Virus record (IMG/VR): IMGVR_UViG_3300029826_000005
Location: 1-36,755 of that record
DNA: 36,755 nucleotides
Reading direction: 5' to 3' (one strand)
From: a virus
In this document: positions 6,781 to 34,769 of the stretch, one piece after another
How the letters are laid out: each line of letters starts with the position of its first letter
How positions within the stretch are numbered: position 1 is the first letter of the stretch
Notes under the pieces: model-generated
What the model was told of the DNA's origin: nothing
The model's input: the letters and a program-made list of their open reading frames with translations, nothing else
Database searches by the model: none
Program-made: the position numbers and the translations under genes

Positions 6781-6864
6781 ATGACTAAAACCGTTAATTT
6801 AACTAGAGCTGGTAGCTATTACGCTGCCAACCTTGATTGCAAGTACAGGAAAATTCTAAAATGA
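6781..6864 (+). CDS. Small coupled ORF (27 residues), possible remnant of a replaced gene
   Basis: ATG 6781 has AGGAAG (6769-6774) six bases upstream and encodes MTKTVNLTRAGSYYAANLDC followed by seven more residues and TGA. The stop overlaps ATG 6861 of the next gene as ATGA, so it could couple translation. The first 18 residues look like the start of a structural protein, while the last few (CKYRKILK) look like out-of-frame reading. The AT-rich composition is like the phage, and the GC-richer cassette begins right after it. I infer a truncated native gene kept as leader; a true micropeptide is also possible. Confidence 0.5.
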   Translation: MTKTVNLTRAGSYYAANLDCKYRKILK

Positions 6865-8294
6865 CAGTCAATCCCGCAAATATCACAGTTGATTTAACAA
6901 CCTACAAAAAAGGCCGTGACGGAAAATATCGTGGAGATGATCCAAATGGCTTGAAAGGCGCACCGCCTGTAATTACTGCATTAAATTTTAATGATCCTGC
7001 TTCCGCTGGTCAGGTATTTACGGACTGGACATGGTATTCAGATGTGACAGGATATGGACAGCCGGGGTGGCAAAACAACGCAGAAAGTCCTACTGTACAT
7101 TCAGCGAAAGGTCGCTGGTATCGAATATTCAATAAATCAGGAGAATCGCTTTCATCTGGATATGGACAAACACAAAATGACCCTGCCATTGATTCAACTG
7201 TTAAAGCGCCTCAGAGGAGTTCGGGAGGATCACTGTTAATATCTGAGTCTTCATCTCTCGGTCGCTGTGGTGCGTGGGTATGGTATGACGGAGAGGCAGT
7301 AATTGACAGGCTTGGCATACTCGCAAAACACAATCGTTGTTCAACCTATGTTCTTACGCATGGTTACGATGATTTTCCAAAGACGGGTTTGGAAAATGAC
7401 ATAGGGGGCGGAAATTTCCACTGGGCCACATATCTTGGATGGACTGGAACGGGTTCGGCGTATGGAACTGGTGACGGCTTACCCTATGAAGGCCCTGGCA
7501 ATCAACATTATTATCATTATTTTAATCTGCCGCCAGATTACTGGTGCCATTTGCAACTGGATCAAAGGCCGCGTTGGCGCAGAAATGCAGGCGATTATTC
7601 AAATTATAATTATGCCGCCGGAGGAGCGCAACTGACTAATCCGCCATTATGGGGAAGCGGCCTTAATTATATGCAGCAATTGATTGAATGGTATTGCGAA
7701 AACCGATACACAGCATCATCGAGTGGACAAAGCAGTAGTCTCAATTTTGATAATTTCGAGTTTTGGTCAACTTCCGACTCAGTGCAGCCTATTCAGAACG
7801 AAACATCAATAGCAGGGGTTGCCGTTGGAAAGCATGTAACAAGCGATAATTGGTTTATTTCGTTTTATGATACGACAGCATTAGCACCAACCCCTAACAG
7901 TTCAGTGGTATCTGATGCAGCCCCACAAATATCGATGGATTATACAACTAATACAACGTTTGAAGTGCGCTGGTCACCAAATCCAATCACTGAAGCTAAC
8001 TGGGAAAATGCGCAATCTGTGATTTTTGATGCAAATTCGTATGCAGGCGTAGCTTATGCGGGTGCAGAGAATAAGCTGAAAAGGTTTAATCCCTGGGATG
8101 CGATGGTATTTTCTCGTTTCACACTTCCACCTGGAACAGAAGCAGCAAATAGTATTATCTATTTTGCTATTAAAGATGTTTCGGTAAAAGGCGGAAATAT
8201 TGGTACGCAAAGCCCATACAATAATCCATCTGGTGATTTCCGAGATGCAGAGCCGGGTATTAAATTAATTGATTATGTACTGAGGTCCGCATAA
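6861..8294 (+). CDS. Large putative virion protein of unknown family (477 residues)
   Basis: I do not recognise this protein. It is rich in W, Y, G, N and S, with few hydrophobic helices and no signal peptide, as in beta-sheet surface proteins. Regions that stand out are aromatic patches in the first half (FTDWTWYSDV, WYRIFNKSGE), a middle region with several His and Tyr (GNQHYYHYFNLPPDYWC), and a C-terminal part where VEVRW-like strands alternate with loops; this could be a jelly-roll or carbohydrate-binding fold. ATG 6861 has AGGA ten bases upstream and overlaps the stop of the small ORF before it. TTG 6837 is possible but less likely. Position suggests a head- or fibre-associated protein; function is unknown. 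Confidence 0.7.
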   Translation: MTVNPANITVDLTTYKKGRDGKYRGDDPNGLKGAPPVITALNFNDPASAGQVFTDWTWYSDVTGYGQPGWQNNAESPTVHSAKGRWYRIFNKSGESLSSGYGQTQNDPAIDSTVKAPQRSSGGSLLISESSSLGRCGAWVWYDGEAVIDRLGILAKHNRCSTYVLTHGYDDFPKTGLENDIGGGNFHWATYLGWTGTGSAYGTGDGLPYEGPGNQHYYHYFNLPPDYWCHLQLDQRPRWRRNAGDYSNYNYAAGGAQLTNPPLWGSGLNYMQQLIEWYCENRYTASSSGQSSSLNFDNFEFWSTSDSVQPIQNETSIAGVAVGKHVTSDNWFISFYDTTALAPTPNSSVVSDAAPQISMDYTTNTTFEVRWSPNPITEANWENAQSVIFDANSYAGVAYAGAENKLKRFNPWDAMVFSRFTLPPGTEAANSIIYFAIKDVSVKGGNIGTQSPYNNPSGDFRDAEPGIKLIDYVLRSA

Positions 8295-10774
8295 TGACTA
8301 ATTTCACAGTTGGACCGTCGAGTACTTACGCTGATTTTCCGTCTGCCGTTGCTGCTGTCATAGCCGCAGGCACATTAACAGAACAGCCAATAATATTGAT
8401 TGAGGATGGTTATACCTACGATGGTGCGCCACCGAGTTTTACAGGTTGGAATGTAACTTCAACATATCCATGTATTGTTCGATGTGTAACTGGAAGAGTT
8501 AACGGCGGTACAGGTACCTATTCCCTCGCATTCACAAGTCAGCTCGATGGACCTGGATATCTTGAATATGAAGATGCAATTATTTCACCAAGCGCATCAT
8601 TCTCGGGATCTAATGCTTTCTGGCTAGATACGAATACTCAAGGAAACAGATTCCGTTATTGTGGCATTACTAATCCTCACACAATAAACGTTAACGGACT
8701 GTTTGGAAGTGCAAATTATCGAGACAATACAGTTGATCAGTGCTATGTATCGGGATTTTCAAGCGAATACAAAAATGCTATATTTAATTTCTTAGAAGTT
8801 ACAAAAACAGTTACATATAACAACTATTCCGGTATTTCTAATTGCACTACCGTTACTGATTGCGCATCTGCATCAAACACATCTGCGGATTTTAATGCAA
8901 ACACTACTCAAACATATTGTGCATCAAGCGACACTACCGCGTCCGGTGTGAATTCCATTACGGGGATCGTTGCTACAACTGAATTTACAAATCCTTCTGC
9001 TAATGATTTTACATTAAAAGCCGGCTCGCAATTAATTTCATCTGGATCAACCGGCGACAACATTGGCGTTGATCAAGTTACGCAAAACCCAACAGCGCCA
9101 GAAGTCACCCAGCAACCCGCTTCAGGTTATGTTGTCGAAGGCGAAGCAACATCATCTATAACATTTAATGTGGCCTTTTCTGGCTATCCAGCACCGACTA
9201 TACAGTGGCAGAAAGATACACAAGGTAACGGAATTTTTGTAAACATAACAGGCGCGACTTCTAATTCGCTAACTGTTGTTGGAAATACTGTAACCATTGC
9301 TTCTAATAGTGGTGATGTTTATCGGGCTGTTGCTACAAATAGCACCGGCAGTATTACAACCAGTGGTGCAGTTCTAACGGTAACTCCTGTTCCACTGGAT
9401 TCAATCATTGCACCTGTGACGATGATTCGCGGTGCGACGTGCCAGTGGACTGTTAGTGACTCTACGGCTGTTCCTACACCGTCAAATGTTACGATCAGTT
9501 ATACGGATGCCAGTTTGGCAGCGGGTACTGTTTCGTTAAGTTCTTATTCAGTATCAGGGACCGGCCCTTATGTTATAACTGCCACGGTTCCGGCTAATCT
9601 TGCATTACAGCATTCTAAAACAGGCTATTCGTGGAAGGTTGATATTGGTGGGAAATATGGATTTTCAGTAAATGTCCCATTAACCCCTCCATCCGGTCAA
9701 TCATTTGTTAATTTTAACGGGCCAGTAACAACATCAGGGTCGGTATTGGCAGGATATACGGGTGATGCTGCTGTAACAGGTGATCAGGATGTATATGAAA
9801 ATATTTCTACGCCTGACTCTATTCCTATTTCTGTAGATGCAACTGGCGTTTGGACATTGGATGCGACGAATTATTCAGTTTTAAGAAGCCAGACGTTTAA
9901 TCATTACATTATTCAGCAAAACGGGACAATTGGGCCGTCTGCGACAGTCACATATCAAATTACCGATGTTGTACCCATAGCTGCATCAATTGATATCAGT
10001 GGTGATGTTACTGGTGCAGATCCTGGTGCTATCACAACAAAGACAATCACACCCTCTGGTGTGGATGCAGGCGCTTCAATTACTGCCTCGGTGACAAACG
10101 GTCAGATAGCAGTTAACGGTGGTGTGTATGCATCTACTGTTTCCTGGCAGCTTGGAGATACGCTTACCATTCAAGGTACAGCCCCAACTTACGAAGCCAC
10201 AACAACAATCGTGCTATCAATATCGGGCGAAACTTCAAGCTTTTCGATTACGTCACGTGCGGCTGTTGTTCCGACTGTAACAACTCCACCAGCAAATGCT
10301 TCTGCAACAGTCGGGGCACAGGCTTCATTCAGCATTGCAGGCACTGGAATTGATCACGTTATTTGGGATGTTGACGGGACAGTTGATGCGTCTCAGACAG
10401 GCTTAACGTTTAACGTCACTAAAAATACTGTAGGAAATTATACGATTGGAGCAACCGCTGTTTCAGCAGAAGGTGGCGACGCAACCAAAGTTACCGCGAT
10501 ACTTACGGTGATTGCTGCATCTGTCACTCTGACAACTGATGTACTACAGGATCGAAATGGAATTATTGCTAATCAAAGTGTAGCGGTTGAGGTATGGACG
10601 CCATTTGTCAGCGGACAACAAGCGACTATGTTGTGGTCTGGAAGTATTACCACCAATGCGACAGGTATTGGAACGGTGACAAACAATCAAATGGGGATAG
10701 CTGGTGATTCTGTCGCTGTTCGTTTTCCTGGTTTGAATAACTCTGCATCTGAGTTGAGGTATACACTCCAATGA
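8294..10774 (+). CDS. Putative fibre or decoration protein: beta-helix-like region plus Ig-like domains
   Basis: The 826-residue protein shows several modules. Residues 1 to about 255 start with GPSSTYADFPSAVAAVIAAG, a motif typical of right-handed beta-helix repeats, and end with NPSANDFTLKAGSQLISSG, also typical of such folds. About 265-365 is an Ig-like domain (QQPASGYVVEGE, IQWQKD, VYRAVATNSTGS). Further beta-sandwich segments follow, one starting at PTVTTPPANASATVGAQASF. The final 83 residues (from about 744) resemble the protein encoded next. Ig-like domains on phage virions are thought to bind surface glycans weakly. TAATG overlaps the upstream stop and ATGA overlaps the next start, so the three genes are coupled. 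Binding target unknown. Confidence 0.75.
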   Translation: MTNFTVGPSSTYADFPSAVAAVIAAGTLTEQPIILIEDGYTYDGAPPSFTGWNVTSTYPCIVRCVTGRVNGGTGTYSLAFTSQLDGPGYLEYEDAIISPSASFSGSNAFWLDTNTQGNRFRYCGITNPHTINVNGLFGSANYRDNTVDQCYVSGFSSEYKNAIFNFLEVTKTVTYNNYSGISNCTTVTDCASASNTSADFNANTTQTYCASSDTTASGVNSITGIVATTEFTNPSANDFTLKAGSQLISSGSTGDNIGVDQVTQNPTAPEVTQQPASGYVVEGEATSSITFNVAFSGYPAPTIQWQKDTQGNGIFVNITGATSNSLTVVGNTVTIASNSGDVYRAVATNSTGSITTSGAVLTVTPVPLDSIIAPVTMIRGATCQWTVSDSTAVPTPSNVTISYTDASLAAGTVSLSSYSVSGTGPYVITATVPANLALQHSKTGYSWKVDIGGKYGFSVNVPLTPPSGQSFVNFNGPVTTSGSVLAGYTGDAAVTGDQDVYENISTPDSIPISVDATGVWTLDATNYSVLRSQTFNHYIIQQNGTIGPSATVTYQITDVVPIAASIDISGDVTGADPGAITTKTITPSGVDAGASITASVTNGQIAVNGGVYASTVSWQLGDTLTIQGTAPTYEATTTIVLSISGETSSFSITSRAAVVPTVTTPPANASATVGAQASFSIAGTGIDHVIWDVDGTVDASQTGLTFNVTKNTVGNYTIGATAVSAEGGDATKVTAILTVIAASVTLTTDVLQDRNGIIANQSVAVEVWTPFVSGQQATMLWSGSITTNATGIGTVTNNQMGIAGDSVAVRFPGLNNSASELRYTLQ

Positions 10775-14891: not shown

Positions 14892-16217
14892 ATGGCATTT
14901 GAAATTGAAGATATTGTTGATGTTTCTATTACCTATGGTGATAGACCTATTTCAACACAATCTTTCGACATCCCTCTATTACTTGTGACACACAATCTTT
15001 GGGACGAAAGGACAAGAATCTATACCAGTGCTAATGACATTTTAGCAGATGGTTTTGCAGATGGAGGCCCTGCATATAAAATGGCTTCAGATTTATTCTC
15101 AGGTATTGAAAAACCTAGAGAGATAGTCTTAGGAAGGCGTGAACTTACCGATTACAGATTAACTTTCGAAGTAGCAAACTCTACTGTCTATACAATTAAT
15201 TTGTATGTTGATACTGGATCTGCAACTTACACTAAAACGTTCTCATACACTTCAGATGCAGATGCTACATCCTCTGAGATAAGCGCTGGACTAGCTTCTT
15301 TGATTGAAGCTGACGGTACTATCAATAGCTCTGTGGCAGCTTCAGATAGTTCAGGCACTCTAGTGATTGCTCCTCAGAATACCGGAAGACTTTATGTAGG
15401 GGCTGTGACTAATAACATACTTATCGCCTCTACATCTCCAGAAACTGTAGGTACAGCTTTAGCTGAAATTGACGTAGAGAATAATGAATGGTTTTTCATT
15501 CTGTCTCCTTCACATAGTTCTACAGATATACAAGGGCTTTCAGAGTATGCTTCAGCAAATAAGAAGATTTATTTTACAAGCTCGCAAGAAGCTGCAATCT
15601 TTACATCTTCTACTGTGGACATTGCTTCTGTTCTTAATGGTTATCAGTATGATAATGTCGTGTTTACATCATATTCAAGTGCAGATAAAGAATTTCCAGA
15701 AGCCGGGGCATTAGGGACTGTTTGTAGTGCTACACCGGGGATAGGTGATTTATTTGCTAAGACTCTAATTGGTGTTGCAATTGACTCAATTAACACTACG
15801 CAAGCGAATTATGCAAAAGCTAAAAAGGCCAATATCTACATAAAGCGTGGAGGTGTTGGTTGGTATGAAAATGGCACAACAGTCTCTGGAAGATTTTTTG
15901 ATGTAGTACACGGGGCGCTTTGGTTAGAGGCCAGACTGCAAGAAGATATCTTTGGTGAAATTAAACGGATGTCTGATCTTAGCAAGAAAATACCTTATAA
16001 AGACGAGGGTGTAGATCAAATTCGTGGAGTCATGATTAAGCGTCTTGATGAAGCTGTAAGAAATGGTTTTTTAGCCTCTTATGAAATATTCCCGCCAAAA
16101 GTAGATGATATTGCAACTAATGATAAGGCTAATAGATTATTACCTGATATCCCATTTGAAGCAGTACTTGCTGGCGCAATACATACAGTCAAGATTAATG
16201 GTTATGTGAGAATATGA
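14892..16217 (+). CDS. Tail sheath protein (DUF3383 family)
   Basis: The 441-residue protein is a contractile tail sheath of the DUF3383 type. It begins MAFEIEDIVDVSITYGDRPISTQSFDIPLLLV, followed by YTSANDILADGFADGGPAYKMASDLFSG (about residues 42-70), an insert with a small beta domain (about 85-190), and the C-terminal RGGVGWYENGTTVSGRFFDVVHGALWLEARLQEDIF region common to this family. It shows that the virion is a myovirus. AGGAGAAATT precedes ATG 14892. The stop TGA overlaps the ATG of the homing endonuclease, which has been inserted between sheath and tube genes. Confidence 0.88.
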   Translation: MAFEIEDIVDVSITYGDRPISTQSFDIPLLLVTHNLWDERTRIYTSANDILADGFADGGPAYKMASDLFSGIEKPREIVLGRRELTDYRLTFEVANSTVYTINLYVDTGSATYTKTFSYTSDADATSSEISAGLASLIEADGTINSSVAASDSSGTLVIAPQNTGRLYVGAVTNNILIASTSPETVGTALAEIDVENNEWFFILSPSHSSTDIQGLSEYASANKKIYFTSSQEAAIFTSSTVDIASVLNGYQYDNVVFTSYSSADKEFPEAGALGTVCSATPGIGDLFAKTLIGVAIDSINTTQANYAKAKKANIYIKRGGVGWYENGTTVSGRFFDVVHGALWLEARLQEDIFGEIKRMSDLSKKIPYKDEGVDQIRGVMIKRLDEAVRNGFLASYEIFPPKVDDIATNDKANRLLPDIPFEAVLAGAIHTVKINGYVRI

Positions 16218-17029
16218 CCGAAAAATTGAATTTGGTCACGCTTGGGGAGACTAAAAACCTTCCCAAGTTATATCAAATAACTAACAAAATAAACAACAAA
16301 TACTATATTGGAGTTACTAGGCATAAACTCTCTAAAAGATTCAAAGAACACTGTAGTTCACGATCTAATTGTCTTCATTTAAAGCACGCGTTAAGCAAAT
16401 ATGGCATTAAAAATTTTGAAATCAAACTTTTAGTAGTCGGTGAAGAGAAGTATATAGCAGACTTAGAGAAGAAAGTTATTTTACTTTATGGGGCAAATGA
16501 GCGTGAAAAAGGATATAACATAAAAGTAGGAGGAAAACATCCTAATACTGCCTCCACAACTGCGAAAGAAAGGATCTCCCAAAGTCTAAGAGAATACTAT
16601 TTAAATAATGAATCTAAGAGTAAAGGATTACCTAGTCCAAATAGAAAACCTGTGATTATCAACGGATCTGAGTATGAGTCTATTGTTACAGCTTGTAGGG
16701 AGATAGGCATTAATTACAAAACTTTCTTGAAAATAAGGTCTGAGAATCTTCTGCATGATACTGATGAATATTTCAGACTATCTAAAATTAAACAATACAG
16801 ACCTAGAGCTACAAAGAAAATAAGAAAGTCTAAATCAGAAGCAAAGACTGGAGAAAATAATCCTATGTTTGGTAAATTAAATAATCACCGATCTAAGAAA
16901 GTTGAAATTTTAGGTATTATGTATCCTAGTATCTCCGAAGCTGTACGACAAACTGATATGACAAAATCAATGATTGAAAAACGTCTCCAGAAGGGTATTT
17001 CTGGATATAAGTACGTAGAGGACAAATAA
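16214..17029 (+). CDS. Free-standing GIY-YIG homing endonuclease
   Basis: Residues 19-46 contain the GIY-YIG module: LYQITNKINNKYYIGVTRH, with Arg42 in KRFKEH as the likely catalytic arginine and Glu96 or Glu98 before GYNI as candidate metal ligand. A long DNA-binding tail follows with NUMOD-type segments: a basic SQSLREYYL motif (about 122-130), NUMOD1-like repeats at about 147-172 and 230-258, and a NUMOD3-like GENNPMFGK (213-221). It lies exactly between the complete sheath and tube genes, starting in an ATGA overlap, so it is a free-standing mobile endonuclease rather than intron-borne. Composition matches the phage. Confidence 0.9.
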   Translation: MTEKLNLVTLGETKNLPKLYQITNKINNKYYIGVTRHKLSKRFKEHCSSRSNCLHLKHALSKYGIKNFEIKLLVVGEEKYIADLEKKVILLYGANEREKGYNIKVGGKHPNTASTTAKERISQSLREYYLNNESKSKGLPSPNRKPVIINGSEYESIVTACREIGINYKTFLKIRSENLLHDTDEYFRLSKIKQYRPRATKKIRKSKSEAKTGENNPMFGKLNNHRSKKVEILGIMYPSISEAVRQTDMTKSMIEKRLQKGISGYKYVEDK

Positions 17030-22066: not shown

Positions 22067-22759
22067 ATGGGATACGATGTATTAGTAAATCTTTTTATTG
22101 ATATGATGCGTCATGTCCACACTATAAAACCTGCTGTAGTTAAGTCTGTGGACTTAGAAAAGAATAAACTCTCAGCTAGGATATTGACTGCCACTAAATA
22201 TCAAGATGGACATATACAAAATTTTACAGATGTAGAAGACGTTCCATTTTTTATTTTAGCAGGCGATGCTGGAAATGCTCGAATAACCATACCACCTTCC
22301 GTTGGAGATAATGTAGTTATACTTTTCAGTGATCGGGATTATGGTTCATTACTGGAGTCTGATGGTCAATCTACCCAAAACCCTAGTGAAATTAAAACAC
22401 ATGAATTTTATCCGTTAATTGCACTGCCAGACTTTTTTACTTCATCAACAGCTAAAAAAATCGAGGCTGATAAAATCGTAATAGAGAACGGAGTTACATC
22501 AATAAAAATTGACTCCATAGGTAGTATAGAAATTACAGCCCCTCAAACTATGACGATAACGACACCTAGCTTAATGATTAATTGCCCTGCAACTGTATTC
22601 ACTGGGACTATAGCTACCGCAGGAATCTTACCAGCACCGGGAGTTGGATCTGTACCCATGACTGGTAGCTATAACATGACAGGAAGTTTTACACTTAATG
22701 GTGTGGTACAAGAAACTCATAGTCATTATCCAAGTATAGCACCACCTTACAACCCATAA
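22067..22759 (+). CDS. Membrane-piercing spike protein (gp138/gpV-like)
   Basis: At 230 residues, the N-terminal part has the OB-fold of the Gp138/gpV group: PAVVKSVDLEKNKLSARIL, then DVEDVPFFILAG and RITIPPSVGDNVVILFSDRDYGSL. A beta-helical shaft follows (KIEADKIVIENGVTSIKIDSIGSIEITAPQTMTITT), with regular strand spacing. Near the C terminus, T-H-S-H (His218, His220) sits before the final ten residues. An HxH pair at the tip binds a metal ion in related spikes such as P2 gpV and phi92 gp138. The shaft is short, about 70 residues. It probably punctures the outer membrane. Confidence 0.82.
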   Translation: MGYDVLVNLFIDMMRHVHTIKPAVVKSVDLEKNKLSARILTATKYQDGHIQNFTDVEDVPFFILAGDAGNARITIPPSVGDNVVILFSDRDYGSLLESDGQSTQNPSEIKTHEFYPLIALPDFFTSSTAKKIEADKIVIENGVTSIKIDSIGSIEITAPQTMTITTPSLMINCPATVFTGTIATAGILPAPGVGSVPMTGSYNMTGSFTLNGVVQETHSHYPSIAPPYNP

Positions 22760-22768
22760 GAGTAAAGA

Positions 22769-24859
22769 ATGTTTGATTTTTACATTAACCCTGCCACTGG
22801 AGATATTGATTTCGATGGCGGGACTGTAACATTAGTCTCTGAGCCTAAAAAAAGAGTTAGGCAAGAGTTAGAAACTACACTAAGAACTTTTGTAGGTGAA
22901 TGGTTTAATAATTTACAATTTGGCGGTATAAATAAAGATTATATTGGCCGAGTAGGTATATCTAAAATAGAAGTGGATGCTTTCTACCGTAGAGTAATAA
23001 TGTCCAACCCAGAAGTATTAGAAATTCTGGATTTTACAAGCTCATTAAATACTTCAACAAGACATTATGAGTTAGACTTCACAGTGAGAACACCTGCTGG
23101 AGATGTAAATCTGATTGTATCTTCTGCAAGCAATGAACAGACTTATCAATTGCCAGATGTTACTACTTATTTGCCGCCTACTACTCCATCTCTCAAGAGT
23201 ATGGCTACATTCATATATGGTACTTCAAGTATTGCTGCAATATTTAGTAAAGATTCAAATCCAATTGTTGCGCAAACAATCACAGGAACGTCATCAATAT
23301 CTGCTTCACCATTAAAATTATGGAATGCTGTAGCTTTAACTGGTAGTTCTACTATGACTGCCGGAGAAATGGTTAAAGTATTGGCTACAACTATTTCAGG
23401 TACAAGTACAGTAACTTCGGCTGCTGGTACATTGATGTCAGCAAATATAACTGGAAATGTATCTAGTTTAGACGCTGTAATAGTTAAAAGATTAGCTAGC
23501 AATATAGGAGCTACAAGTTCTCTTCTTGGAGCTTTTATGAAGAGTATTTCTACTGATATAACAGGTACAAGTAATATCTCTGCATTAATGGCTAGAAGTG
23601 GAGTTACTTCTGTAAGTGGTAATTCTAGTATTACATCGACAATGACTAAACTGATGTCTGCAAATATATCAGCTACATCGTTTATGTTGGCAAGCTATTC
23701 TGTACAAATGAGTTCTGATATTACAGGTAGCAGTGTATTAACTTCTAATGCAGTTAAAACTCTGAAATCTACCTTAACAGGTATAAGTTCAATATCTGCG
23801 AATTCTAATAAGAAATTAACTTCTATACAAAATAATGCAAGTAGCGTATCTGCGACTATAACTAAGAGATTAGCAGCTAATATACCTGCAACAGTTTCTA
23901 CTATATTTGCTAAACCAAACCACAGCTTGAATGGAAACATTACTGGATCTTCCGGTGTGGTAGCAACTATGAAGAAGATTAAGAAGTCTTCTAGCATAAT
24001 TAATAATACAAGTAGTATAGTAGCTAATATGGTCAAGACTAAGAACATATCTTCAGGAATTACTGGAAGCTCATCATTAACAGCTAATCTATCTAAACTA
24101 TTTTTAGCCGCTGGGGATACTTTGACAGCTTATGATACAGCAGTGGTTAATGATAGTGCAACAAACTATTGGAAATTACATGAAGATTATGGAACTTCAG
24201 TTCCTTCGCCAGCTACGGTAGTAGATATGTTATTAGGTGATGTTGGAAGTGTTTATTCTCCAAGTATCTCCAGTTTTAATTTTACAGGTGAAGCTTTATT
24301 AAATTATCCGTCCAGTAGAAGTATTAATTTGAATTCTTCAAGTAACCTTGCTGATTTAAAATACAGACTCATGCCGTCAGGAACTTTATCTCAGAGCATG
24401 ACATTAAATTTCTGGGTGAAGATAGCTTCGAGTGGGGTTGTTGCAAATCCACTACTCGCGGCAAAAACAACCACAGGTAATCAGTATTGGTCTGTTATTT
24501 TACAGAACACAGGAGCCTTAATTTTCTCACTAACGGATTATAATTTAACTACATATACAGTATGGACAACATCTAGTGGAGTGATCTCAACTAACAATAA
24601 ATATTTTGTAAGTATTATTTTTGACAATAGTCAGACAACAGCAAACAAGATAAGAGTATATATTAATGGGGCACTCGTAGGTGTATCTCAAGGTTTTAGT
24701 AACTCAGCAGGTATAACCTTAAGTAATAGTAGTGCTTTATCAGATTTATTATTAGTACCAAATGGATCACAAGGACACAGAATAGAATCAATCAGTTTGC
24801 ATAAAGATGTTTTAACTCCAACACAAATAACTGATTTATATACGTTAGGCAATAACTAA
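22769..24859 (+). CDS. gp25-like baseplate wedge protein fused to repeats and a lectin-like domain
   Basis: Residues 1-120 are the gp25/gpW-like baseplate wedge: PKKRVRQELETTLRTFVGEWFNN, then EVDAFYRRVIMSNPEVLEILDF and YELDFTVRTPAGDV. Normal members stop there. Here about 149-445 are some 15 degenerate 18-20-residue units of the form (I/V)(T/S)G(T/S)S(S/T)(I/L)(S/T)A-x-x-x-K, and about 450-696 is a jelly-roll domain of LamG/ConA type (MTLNFWVKIAS, YWSVILQNTGALIFSLTD, IRVYINGALVGVSQG, ISLHKDVLTPTQITDLY). Such domains often bind glycans. The gene ends in a TAATG overlap with the next. The fused part may radiate from each wedge; this is inference. Confidence 0.82.
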   Translation: MFDFYINPATGDIDFDGGTVTLVSEPKKRVRQELETTLRTFVGEWFNNLQFGGINKDYIGRVGISKIEVDAFYRRVIMSNPEVLEILDFTSSLNTSTRHYELDFTVRTPAGDVNLIVSSASNEQTYQLPDVTTYLPPTTPSLKSMATFIYGTSSIAAIFSKDSNPIVAQTITGTSSISASPLKLWNAVALTGSSTMTAGEMVKVLATTISGTSTVTSAAGTLMSANITGNVSSLDAVIVKRLASNIGATSSLLGAFMKSISTDITGTSNISALMARSGVTSVSGNSSITSTMTKLMSANISATSFMLASYSVQMSSDITGSSVLTSNAVKTLKSTLTGISSISANSNKKLTSIQNNASSVSATITKRLAANIPATVSTIFAKPNHSLNGNITGSSGVVATMKKIKKSSSIINNTSSIVANMVKTKNISSGITGSSSLTANLSKLFLAAGDTLTAYDTAVVNDSATNYWKLHEDYGTSVPSPATVVDMLLGDVGSVYSPSISSFNFTGEALLNYPSSRSINLNSSSNLADLKYRLMPSGTLSQSMTLNFWVKIASSGVVANPLLAAKTTTGNQYWSVILQNTGALIFSLTDYNLTTYTVWTTSSGVISTNNKYFVSIIFDNSQTTANKIRVYINGALVGVSQGFSNSAGITLSNSSALSDLLLVPNGSQGHRIESISLHKDVLTPTQITDLYTLGNN
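23213..24103 (+). repeat. Degenerate 18-20-residue protein repeat array in the wedge fusion
   Basis: Unit starts fall at residues 171, 209, 227, 246, 264, 282, 300, 318, 336, 354, 372, 391, 411 and 431 of the protein, with ITGTSSISA-like motifs. Copies differ at DNA level, so this is an old protein repeat like that at 11166-11840. Confidence 0.75.
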
Positions 24860-26346
24860 TGGCAGAAATAACAAAATACGGTTTTGAGAGGGAAACTTAT
24901 CCCGAAGTTTTAGCAAAAGTGAAAGATATTTTTCGTCAAACGCTGGGCGTTTCTGTCCAGCTTAATGACGATAATATTTTAGGGCATCATGCAGCTATAT
25001 TAGCAAAACTTCAAAATGATAATAATAGATTAGCAGAGGCTATCTGGAGCAGTCAGAGATTAGAGGGCGCAGAGGGAGTTTATTTAGACGATATTTTTTC
25101 CAAGAATGGTATTTATCGTAGAGGTAAACAACCCTCCTCTGGGGATATTATTTTAGAATTAGATTCTACTGTACCATCTAATCAGACAGTACCAATAACT
25201 ACACAGTTTATAGGTAGTAATAATCAAGTTTATCAACCTACATCTGAAGTACTTTTAACCTCATCTGTAATAGGTTACAAACTGGCATTAACTGATATAA
25301 CTGACACAAGCTATTCTGTAACTCTTATCAGTACAATAGATGGAACAACTAACAATCTTACATTCACAAATGATGGAACAGATGCCAGTAAAATAACGAT
25401 GATTCAATCTATTTACTCTGCTTGGTTAAATTACACAAGTGGGAATTCAGATAGAATCTTCATAGACAATACAAATAATATTCTATATGTTGGATATTAT
25501 ATTTCAAATTCTGAATTAGTGGGCCTGAAAGAATCCACTGAATTTCAAATATCTCCTAATGTTGGAACAAAATATTGTTCTGTTAACGTTAAGGCAGTTA
25601 ATGCCGGATATTACCCACTACCGGCTAATGGGATTAAATCCATTACACCTACATTCTCCGGCCTGCTGAGTACTAAGAATATTATTTCTTTTTATTCAGG
25701 AAGTGAAATAGAATCAGATGCAGAATACCGTGAAAGATATTTTTCAGAAATAGCTGCATTATCTGGAAGCACTAGAGATGGAATCGTCAGTTCTGTATTG
25801 AAGGTAAGCGGTGTTAGTAAAGTTACTCTTTACGATAATCCAACGCTAATAGATCAAGACTTTGCAGATGCATTAACTTTTCATATTGTTGTCCTTGGTG
25901 GAACTAATGCAGATGTAGCACAAGCTATTTATGAAAGTAAACCGATAAATACGCAAACCTATGGTGCTCTGAGCTATGCAGTTAGCACTCTGGATGGAGA
26001 CACGGAAACTATACGTCACTCTAATGCTTCACAAGTAGAGGTAGATGTCAGGGTTAACTATAAAACTCTAAATAGAGTCCCGCTTAGTAGCACAGAGAAG
26101 ACAGAGATCATAACCGGATTAAAAGACTACTTCTCATCTCTAAAGATAGGATCGGTTCTATACAACGCCCAAGTACTGTTTATAGTTTTGAACAGTATAT
26201 CTAGAAATAGGGTTTTGAGTGTTACATTAGATATGAAGTTGTCTTCTTTATCTGATTCAGCTTTTGGAAACTCTGATCTTACACCAAACTATACAGAACT
26301 GTTTGTTTTACGTGATGGGGGTGTTAGCTTTAATCAGCTAGTTTAA
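24859..26346 (+). CDS. Baseplate wedge protein J-like
   Basis: The 495-residue protein has the J/gp6-like layout: FERETYPEVLAKVKDIFRQTLG at the start, then NNRLAEAIWSSQRLEGAEGVYLDDIFSKNGIYRR (about residues 52-85), a QPSSGDIILELDSTVPSNQTVPI segment, GLLSTKNIISFYSGSEIESDAEYRERYFSEIAALSGSTRDGIVSSVLKVSGVSKVTLYDN (about 273-335), which is the conserved core of this family, and a C-terminal VNYKTLNRVPLSSTEKTEI helix region. J-like proteins form the wedge that triggers sheath contraction. It is coupled to the next gene. Confidence 0.88.
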   Translation: MAEITKYGFERETYPEVLAKVKDIFRQTLGVSVQLNDDNILGHHAAILAKLQNDNNRLAEAIWSSQRLEGAEGVYLDDIFSKNGIYRRGKQPSSGDIILELDSTVPSNQTVPITTQFIGSNNQVYQPTSEVLLTSSVIGYKLALTDITDTSYSVTLISTIDGTTNNLTFTNDGTDASKITMIQSIYSAWLNYTSGNSDRIFIDNTNNILYVGYYISNSELVGLKESTEFQISPNVGTKYCSVNVKAVNAGYYPLPANGIKSITPTFSGLLSTKNIISFYSGSEIESDAEYRERYFSEIAALSGSTRDGIVSSVLKVSGVSKVTLYDNPTLIDQDFADALTFHIVVLGGTNADVAQAIYESKPINTQTYGALSYAVSTLDGDTETIRHSNASQVEVDVRVNYKTLNRVPLSSTEKTEIITGLKDYFSSLKIGSVLYNAQVLFIVLNSISRNRVLSVTLDMKLSSLSDSAFGNSDLTPNYTELFVLRDGGVSFNQLV

Positions 26347-26347
26347 T

Positions 26348-27025
26348 ATGTCTCTTAACTTTATACAGGAAAATCAGGAATACACTCAGGACGTGTATTC
26401 CTTAGTACTCGACCAATATGCTAACAAAGAATACTATATTAAATTTATTGATCTGTTGATTAATATCCAAAAAGACTTTCAAAGACTCTTAGTTGAATTA
26501 GCAACAAGTCGTAGATTACCGTTGGCAGAAGGAGAGCAGTTAACAGAAATAGGTCGTCAGTTAGGTATAACAAGAACTACAGACGATGATAATGATTTTA
26601 GAGCTGCTATCTATCTCTCCTCAGTAAAACGTACAGCAGATGGCACAAGAGATTCAATAGCGAGTGCATTACAAATCTCTACTGGAGAATATCCTTATCT
26701 GTATTCAGGATTATACCATTCAGTAGATGTAACTATTAATGGTGATATATACCCTTCATTTGAAACTGTGGACGAAGTTGTAAACTTACTACCTGTAAAT
26801 ACAAATTATAGGATATTAAAGTCACCAATAAACGGAAGTAAACCTTTTGGTTTTTATAGTAATACTCATGCTGGAGGCATGGCCAGTAAATTTTTATCAG
26901 ATACAACAGGCTGTGGAGCTATGTGTAGTAAATTAACTCAAACACCAAAACCAAGAATAAGAAGTAATTTGGCATTACCTTATGTCGAATTTGGTTATGT
27001 AGAATCAGGATATGTAGGTAACTAA
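26348..27025 (+). CDS. Baseplate I-like protein (DUF2612)
   Basis: The 225-residue protein follows the J-like gene. Its first half matches the gpI/DUF2612 group: a helix YIKFIDLLINIQKDFQRLLVELATSRRLPLAEGEQLTEIGRQLGI, then DDDNDFRAAIYLSSVKRTADGTRDSIASALQ. The second half is a small beta domain ending in an aromatic/Gly tail (YVEFGYVESGYVGN). I-like proteins bind between wedge and tail fibres. The last 70 residues contain two Cys (CGAMC) and could interact with a fibre chaperone or adaptor; that is speculative. Confidence 0.78.
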   Translation: MSLNFIQENQEYTQDVYSLVLDQYANKEYYIKFIDLLINIQKDFQRLLVELATSRRLPLAEGEQLTEIGRQLGITRTTDDDNDFRAAIYLSSVKRTADGTRDSIASALQISTGEYPYLYSGLYHSVDVTINGDIYPSFETVDEVVNLLPVNTNYRILKSPINGSKPFGFYSNTHAGGMASKFLSDTTGCGAMCSKLTQTPKPRIRSNLALPYVEFGYVESGYVGN

Positions 27026-27618
27026 TGACAATAACATATAGATTAACCAAGGGATCGCAACTAACTTATCAAGAATTGGATGCAAACTTCCAAGACGTAG
27101 ATACAAGACTTAAAAAATCAGATAAGTTGCGAGGCGGCTGGCACTCAGTAATAGACGTTACAACTCAATCAACGCCGATATCTTACACTGGCGGTAGTGG
27201 AACCATTTATTTAACTAATGATGGAGCGGATGCTAGAACAACCGCAGATTACCTACCTGATGGAGTCACTTCCTTATGGGATACCTCCACCAACAGGTTT
27301 GATTTCTCAGAGTTGCCCATAGGCAGCATTTTGCATATTAATACAATAACTACTTTTATCACTAGCGCAGCTAATCAAGAGATAGTCTTGCAATATATTA
27401 AAGCGATAGGCGATACTGCTGAAGAAGTCTTCCCTCTGTGGTATGGTCAGTTCAAAACTGCCGGAACTTACACAATAAGTAACAGGTTAAGTATACCTAT
27501 AGCAGATACCTCATTCACTACACTGCCCGGCGGGGTTCAATTTTCAAGCCCTAACGATTGCAGTATAAAAGTTTATGGTTGGTTTTTGGAAGCTTATATT
27601 AGAGGTGAGATTGCCTAA
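27025..27618 (+). CDS. Tail fibre-type protein, N-terminal module
   Basis: The 197-residue protein begins MTITYRLTKGSQLTYQELDANFQDVDTRL, a short leader with Q-L-T-x-x-E-L-D-x-N-F that is a common start of phage tail fibre and baseplate adaptor proteins. The rest is beta-rich with YTGGSGTIYLTNDGADART, YLPDGVTSLWDTSTNRFDF and VYGWFLEAYIRGEI, like a receptor-facing or capping domain. No enzymatic motif. It is in a TAATG overlap with both neighbours, so it is likely made in equal amounts with the collar protein. Confidence 0.6.
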   Translation: MTITYRLTKGSQLTYQELDANFQDVDTRLKKSDKLRGGWHSVIDVTTQSTPISYTGGSGTIYLTNDGADARTTADYLPDGVTSLWDTSTNRFDFSELPIGSILHINTITTFITSAANQEIVLQYIKAIGDTAEEVFPLWYGQFKTAGTYTISNRLSIPIADTSFTTLPGGVQFSSPNDCSIKVYGWFLEAYIRGEIA

Positions 27619-28211
27619 TGACAATAAATACTGATGAGTTGAAGTGGGCTGTAGATGATGTAAATCTTCCGGGAACAGGCGCTGCAAATAAATCTGAACC
27701 TAGCACTACAATAAAAACTGTAGGCTTAGATTATCAAGAATTTCTTGCAGCCGAAGATCTCAATTGGATGTTCTCTAAAATATACTCTGCAATAGTAGAT
27801 TTAGACAGTAGAACAATTAGTGCTGGTCAACTACCAGTAGGTTCCCTCTATATGAACGAGGATGACGATAGAAACCCTGCTATTTTGCTTGGATATGGGA
27901 CGTGGGAGTCTAAGTCAGGTACAGTAATAATTGGGGCTGGAACTTATACAGACTCCAATAATGAAACAAAAACATTCATTGCTGGAACAGAGGGTGGTGA
28001 GTATAGCCATAAATTAACAATCTCTGAGTTGCCTGCACACACGCATGGGAATGTGCCGCTATATAAACCTACGGGTGACGTAGACAGAGGTACAAATACC
28101 TCTAAGTTCTCTATCGACGATGTCGATAAAACAGCATCGACTGGTTCTGACCAACCACACAACAATATGATGCCCTACACTGTAGCTTATGTTTGGAAGA
28201 GGATTGCATGA
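27618..28211 (+). CDS. Tail fibre protein with a collar-like C-terminal domain
   Basis: The 197-residue protein starts with a similar adaptor sequence (MTINTDELKWAVDDVNLPGTG, then LAAEDLNWMFSKIYSAIVDLD) and ends with a tail-collar type domain: QLPVGSLYMNEDDDRNPAILLGYGTWESKSGTVIIGAGTY and GEYSHKLTISELPAHTHG, with NMMPYTVAYVWKRIA at the end. The E-L-P-x-H-x-H motif (about 146) and NMPPY-like ending are hallmarks of T4 gp12-like and lambda Stf-like receptor-binding tips, where the His pair binds a metal. Two neighbouring fibre genes may build one fibre. Confidence 0.78.
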   Translation: MTINTDELKWAVDDVNLPGTGAANKSEPSTTIKTVGLDYQEFLAAEDLNWMFSKIYSAIVDLDSRTISAGQLPVGSLYMNEDDDRNPAILLGYGTWESKSGTVIIGAGTYTDSNNETKTFIAGTEGGEYSHKLTISELPAHTHGNVPLYKPTGDVDRGTNTSKFSIDDVDKTASTGSDQPHNNMMPYTVAYVWKRIA

Positions 28212-34322: not shown

Positions 34323-34769
34323 CTATTTCTCCTCGTAAAAGCAATGACTACCTAATTTCATAGTAAATACTACTTTACTTTTATCCCAACTTCTAGGAAA
34401 TGGTATTTTGTGCTTTCCACTACAAGCATAGTATAGTGTGCTTTGTGCCACTTTAGGCACACGACAATAGCCATCTATAACACATTCTGTAACGCTCACA
34501 GCTAAATTAAATCTCTCTTCTTTAACTTCAAAAGATGTTCTTTCCAAAAAAGAGAATTGCCATACACCTTTCTTTTTCTGTTTAACTACTCCACAAGGTA
34601 GCGAAGGATATCTTTTACTTTCTACTCTATTCATTATAACTTGAGCTATAGCTACTTGTCCAGCAATACTCTCACCTCTTGCTTCAAAATAGACAGCTTT
34701 AGCTACACATTGGATATCAATAGCATAACAAAAGGATGGAAATAATAGAAAGAGTATAAGAAATTTCAT
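34323..34769 (-). CDS. Secreted SleB-type endolysin (Hydrolase_2)
   Basis: The 148-residue protein begins with a cleavable signal peptide, MKFLILFLLFPSFCYA (1-16), then the SleB/Hydrolase_2 fold: CVAKAVYFEARGESIAGQVAIAQVIMNR (residues 21-48) with Glu29 as catalytic acid, a central LPCGVVKQKKKGVWQFSF, and the closing FTMKLGSHCFYEEK. The lytic transglycosylase-like domain cleaves peptidoglycan. Export by Sec means it reaches the periplasm without the holin, so the timing of lysis may depend on secretion and membrane depolarisation. It is encoded far from the holin, in the early-type operon. Confidence 0.85.
   Translation of the reverse strand: MKFLILFLLFPSFCYAIDIQCVAKAVYFEARGESIAGQVAIAQVIMNRVESKRYPSLPCGVVKQKKKGVWQFSFLERTSFEVKEERFNLAVSVTECVIDGYCRVPKVAQSTLYYACSGKHKIPFPRSWDKSKVVFTMKLGSHCFYEEK

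Follow-up and report, generated by a model that had tools for sequence, protein, structure and literature searches.

Here we describe a viral protein in which a gp25-like baseplate wedge domain (BW1), a repeat stalk and a lectin-like domain are joined in one reading frame; as far as the sequences can tell, this three-part fusion is real, rare and conserved. We think it fairly probable that the protein is the sheath initiator (BW1) of a phage with a contractile tail and that its C-terminal extension makes it an adhesin borne by the baseplate wedge. The stretch of DNA analysed (the window, 36,755 nucleotides) comprises positions 1-36,755 of the virus record IMGVR_UViG_3300029826_000005, which is 52,888 bases long.

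Layout and conservation of the fusion protein

The gene runs from an ATG at 22769 to a TAA at 24859 as a single unbroken frame, which translates into 696 aa. Residues 1-132 (22769..23164, plus strand) form the gp25/BW1 sheath-initiator domain, which was recognized by the PHROG profiles phrog_120 ('baseplate wedge subunit', 3e-16) and phrog_4233 (4e-19) and by matches to sheath initiators in the PDB (9zd7, 5.2e-13; 9cuy, 4.3e-10; 9mjn, 5.5e-10; Phi92 gp139, 4.4e-9); the Pfam gp25 model gave no match. Residues D12, Q32, W45, G52 and R98 of the core are invariant across 20 aligned sequences. In the AF2 model the domain has pLDDT values mostly of 75-93, with lower values at residues 41-60, and a Foldseek search with the full model found the sheath initiators of PhiTE, Pam3 and E217 and T4 gp25 (9cuy at 6.3e-4; 7yfz, 8env and 5iw9 with weaker E-values and a probability of about 1), as well as Barba proteins. 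The gene also sits at the position expected for gp25, between the spike and BW2/gpJ genes.

At the end of the gp25 domain lies a Y-x-x-P linker motif common to other extended gp25 proteins. The alignment places a proline-rich linker, conserved in the 1016-residue relative described below, at residues 133-143 (23165..23197, plus strand). The stalk follows at residues 144-443 (23198..24097, plus strand) and was parsed into 16 contiguous units of 18-22 residues with a consensus of about xLSATITGTSSVTANxTK; its periodicity is evident from autocorrelation (z = 5.0 at lag 18 and 3.2 at lag 19), and the AF2 model shows regular strands, about two beta strands per unit, at a pLDDT of about 53-71. An earlier note on this DNA had proposed a fusion of gp25, a repeat stalk of some 300 residues and a lectin-like domain in one frame, and both the stalk and the uninterrupted frame are borne out, the latter with the same plan in a second contig.

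The C-terminal part (24119..24856, plus strand) is assigned as a ConA/LamG-type jelly-roll. When the C-terminus was scanned alone, Pfam Laminin_G_3 matched with an E-value of 7.5e-10 and 39.6 bits (cut-off 27.6) over profile positions 10-111 of 151, with the core match at 24374-24706; the match recurred in a genome search (40.6 bits) and was missed when the protein was scanned at full length. Within the contigs of the window record and of the relative, this protein and its homologue account for the only LamG matches. The tip was poorly modelled in the full-length AF2 model, and a tip-only model of low confidence (pLDDT 43), in which the strand pattern is seen, led Foldseek to lectin-type folds in the PDB (PilC, CBM40, galectins and LamG). 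Homology to the Botulinum binding domain, suggested by Foldseek matches, was rejected, as only the jelly-roll fold is shared. Searched against the sequences in the PDB, stalk and tip returned nothing credible.

The search for other gp25 fusions by architecture that the earlier note had proposed yielded one full-architecture relative, a homologue of 1016 residues on a 93.7 kb contig (IMGVR_UViG_3300024307_000003; loci L069 and L116), which was found only by scanning IMG/VR with an alignment of gp25 sequences from extended proteins. The two proteins are 43% identical across residues 1-448, and their 16 repeats pair one-to-one in the same register with nearly equal spacings. The relative has four extra stalk units at the distal end, before the lectin part; the first of its lectin-like regions aligns to the tip of the window protein and the second matches Laminin_G_3. 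Both contigs share the gene order from the tape measure gene through a gene of 175/184 aa. Identity between these two genomes is 55% in the gp25 part, 38% in the stalk and 24% in the tip, which is thus the least conserved part, and amounts to 61% for BW2, 62% for the sheath and 45-48% for the fibre-type genes. A conserved core with a fast-diverging tip is typical of receptor-binding tips, and the combination of a conserved virion-anchored N-terminus and a variable C-terminal tip, found here in two genomes only, is what would be expected of an adhesin.

The full architecture was seen in these two genomes only. No relative emerged from IMG/VR scans with the whole protein or the C-terminus alone, from bacterial and archaeal genome scans or from a plasmid search, and a scan with BW2 returned only the same relative. 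Of the queries put to the isolate phages (whole protein, gp25 part, C-terminal part, stalk), the gp25 part was the only one that found any; stalk and tip together gave no match at 1e-2, the tip alone one match at chance level, and the stalk of the relative none.

Extended gp25 proteins in other phages

The lengths of gp25-like proteins were surveyed in 98 distinct complete frames from the fetched loci, a pattern-based sample in which fractions are rough: 68 were of 140 aa or less, 28 of 141-225 aa, one of 441 aa and one, the relative and the only protein above 450 aa, of 1016 aa. Gp25-like proteins do not always have the 120-150 residues that had been given as normal: lengths of 166-222 aa are frequent among vequinta-like and phi92-like phages, and Barba phages reach 441 aa. 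The extended gp25 proteins of vequinta-like, phi92-like, Aeromonas and Vibrio phages have in common a tyrosine-proline linker that is followed by a W-rich motif, whereas the fusion protein has the linker without the W-rich motif and runs on into a stalk of its own. The gene following the extended gp25 gene encodes an endosialidase or sialidase in the Aeromonas and Vibrio phages, and in Barba it is a tailspike gene annotated with a pectate-lyase-type domain (PF12708). Because tailspike-type genes follow several extended gp25 genes, the C-terminus of BW1 is a plausible outward exit, and we infer that it serves as the exit for adhesins in several lineages, usually as separate proteins and here covalently.

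T4 gp25, Mu gp46, Pam3 gp21 and the BW1 proteins of PhiTE and Phi92 (gp139) are alike with the fusion protein in the N-terminal domain, its fold and the position between spike and BW2; they mostly measure about 115-220 aa, however, and the fusion protein adds about 560 residues of stalk and lectin. The closest isolate by the gp25 domain (38% identity) is the gp25-like protein of Rheinheimera Barba phages (441 aa, QCQ59200.1), which also has a long C-terminal extension in one frame; unlike that of the fusion protein, this extension lacks a repeat stalk and a LamG match, giving just sub-threshold Ig/fn3-like matches, and the tailspike is encoded separately by the next gene. In the Barba loci (L002:4001-5326 and L014:6001-6597), the frame with the extension runs through all 441 codons in Barba5S, and in another record a stop stands at codon 199 (CAA to TAA), with the remaining frame still open.

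Wedge proteins with comparable additions have been described. Gp119 of phage Vp4 has lectin-type, carbohydrate-binding modules of its own and was shown to bind host cells, which it decorates (PMC11406892), but this protein is BW3, the wedge component to which fibres usually attach, whereas the fusion protein is the sheath initiator BW1. According to the passages of PMC10811340 that cite it, gp102 of phage A511 is also a BW1 with a fused C-terminal domain (BW1-BW4); its fusion partner is given there as an internal LysM-type glue protein, whereas the fusion protein carries an adhesin-type module. In the open-access literature we found no published fusion of gp25 to an adhesin. Lectin-bearing wedge proteins are thus already known (BW3 of Vp4), as are extended BW1 proteins, and no report of a lectin on BW1 was found. 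The fusion shows that large C-terminal modules are tolerated by BW1.

Tail module and possible function

The contractile-tail module to which the fusion gene belongs also contains sheath, tube-type, tape measure and hub genes. The tail sheath protein is encoded at 14892..16217 on the plus strand (phrog_205, 2.2e-94); a GIY-YIG homing endonuclease gene (16214-17029) stands between it and the next structural gene. The spike, wedge and short fibre genes named next are likewise on the plus strand. Directly upstream of the fusion gene is the gpV-like baseplate spike (22067..22759; PF18352, 8.7e-7; Phage_base_V weak) and directly downstream the BW2/gpJ-like wedge protein (24859..26346; PF04865, 5.3e-9; phrog_6, 3.4e-43), followed by a BW3 candidate (26348..27025; phrog_4056 baseplate protein, DUF2612 below cut-off). 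Next come a short fibre-type protein (27025..27618), whose N-terminus LTKGSQLTYQELDANF is similar to that of tailspike gp123, encoded by the gene that follows gp25 in Barba, and a short fibre/tip protein with a Gp10_C domain (27618..28211; PF21939, 1.8e-19). Both short fibre-type genes are in the usual fibre position and conserved in both genomes. An adhesin-like protein of 826 aa with an Ig-like domain is encoded at 8294-10774. No chaperone-family match was obtained among the genes scanned.

The earlier note had supposed that the wedge could display its binding heads without a separate fibre gene. This is not supported, as two fibre-type genes and the adhesin-like gene are present and the phage does not have to depend on the gp25 fusion only; of that interpretation as a whole, the domain identities and the single frame stand.

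BW1 starts the sheath; its six copies form a ring that receives the arms of the lowest, first-assembled layer of the sheath (PMC11915804). The gp25 core would be seated in this ring in six copies, like other BW1 proteins, and the stalk would exit the baseplate from the BW1 C-terminus. The LamG/ConA head would then meet the host surface, with a surface glycan as its most likely target by analogy, and six binding heads would be added to those of the separate short fibres. Display of heads by the wedge protein fits the conserved core and diverging tip. An adhesin role is likely. Binding could also pull directly on the contraction-trigger ring, a weaker suggestion; a direct link from host contact to sheath firing is something we would only infer.

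A central question in the study of contractile tails is how receptor binding at the periphery makes itself felt in the sheath. Receptor-binding proteins of the phages in the papers cited here attach mainly to BW3; those of Milano bind both BW2 and BW3, and the Milano tailspike also has disulfide bonds to BW1, one of several such partners (PMC10811340). In the present viruses the trigger ring itself may bear a part that touches the host, and a covalent adhesin on BW1 would, if true, be a natural experiment in which the relay is shortened. We regard as rather doubtful the bolder proposal that the sheath initiator is itself a main receptor-binding protein in this phage lineage, its six covalent lectin-tipped stalks acting mechanically on the trigger upon binding, with no fibre-to-BW3 linkage.

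Several points speak against a wedge-borne adhesin. The lectin model is of low confidence, and the full architecture comes from two genomes. Most adhesin stalks are trimeric, whereas six BW1 copies would carry single chains, and the separate fibre-type genes may encode the true receptor binders. In an unlikely alternative, stalk and jelly-roll are a structural connector between the baseplate and either the short fibres or adjacent wedges, and the products of the genes at 27025, 27618 or 8294 bind the host. Such a role would agree with the retention of separate short fibre-type genes in both genomes, and anchoring of another protein is suggested by the many extended gp25 genes that encode a conserved C-terminal W-rich motif and are followed by a tailspike or other gene. 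However, that motif is absent from the fusion protein, the divergence of the tip (24% identity) greatly exceeds that of the fibre-type genes (45-48%), and the lectin-type fold, together with the second lectin-like domain added in the relative, better suits ligand binding.

It is quite improbable that the protein is processed like a polyprotein, freeing the gp25 core from a stalk-lectin part that acts alone or is lost: although a core of about 120-130 residues suffices in most phages and at least one Barba record has a stop codon within the gp25 extension, no cleavage site was noticed, and linker and stalk are kept as one frame in the relative at 43% identity. The sequence stems from the contig of an uncultured virus, where the loss of a stop codon or a chimeric assembly could be suspected, but because an independent contig repeats both the three-part protein and the order of its neighbouring genes, a sequencing or assembly artefact is very unlikely, to the point of being negligible. 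We favour the BW1 protein extended into a wedge-borne adhesin.

Further genes

Two large genes without a PHROG match follow that of the major head protein (6837-8294 and 8294-10774); the product of the second, the adhesin-like protein with its Ig-like domain, has perhaps a beta-helix-like start and is possibly a head fibre or spike. A cell wall hydrolase gene (Hydrolase_2) on the minus strand at 34323-34769 is a candidate endolysin gene. A nicotinamide phosphoribosyltransferase gene (L013:2506-5040; G000:C1:39205-41739) is split by an insert that resembles an intein; it is about 320 residues long, starts with CYDTETEIL and ends with VCGN before a T. Upstream of it lies a PRPP synthetase gene (L013:761-1573), and the two genes together suggest a phage NAD+ salvage pathway.
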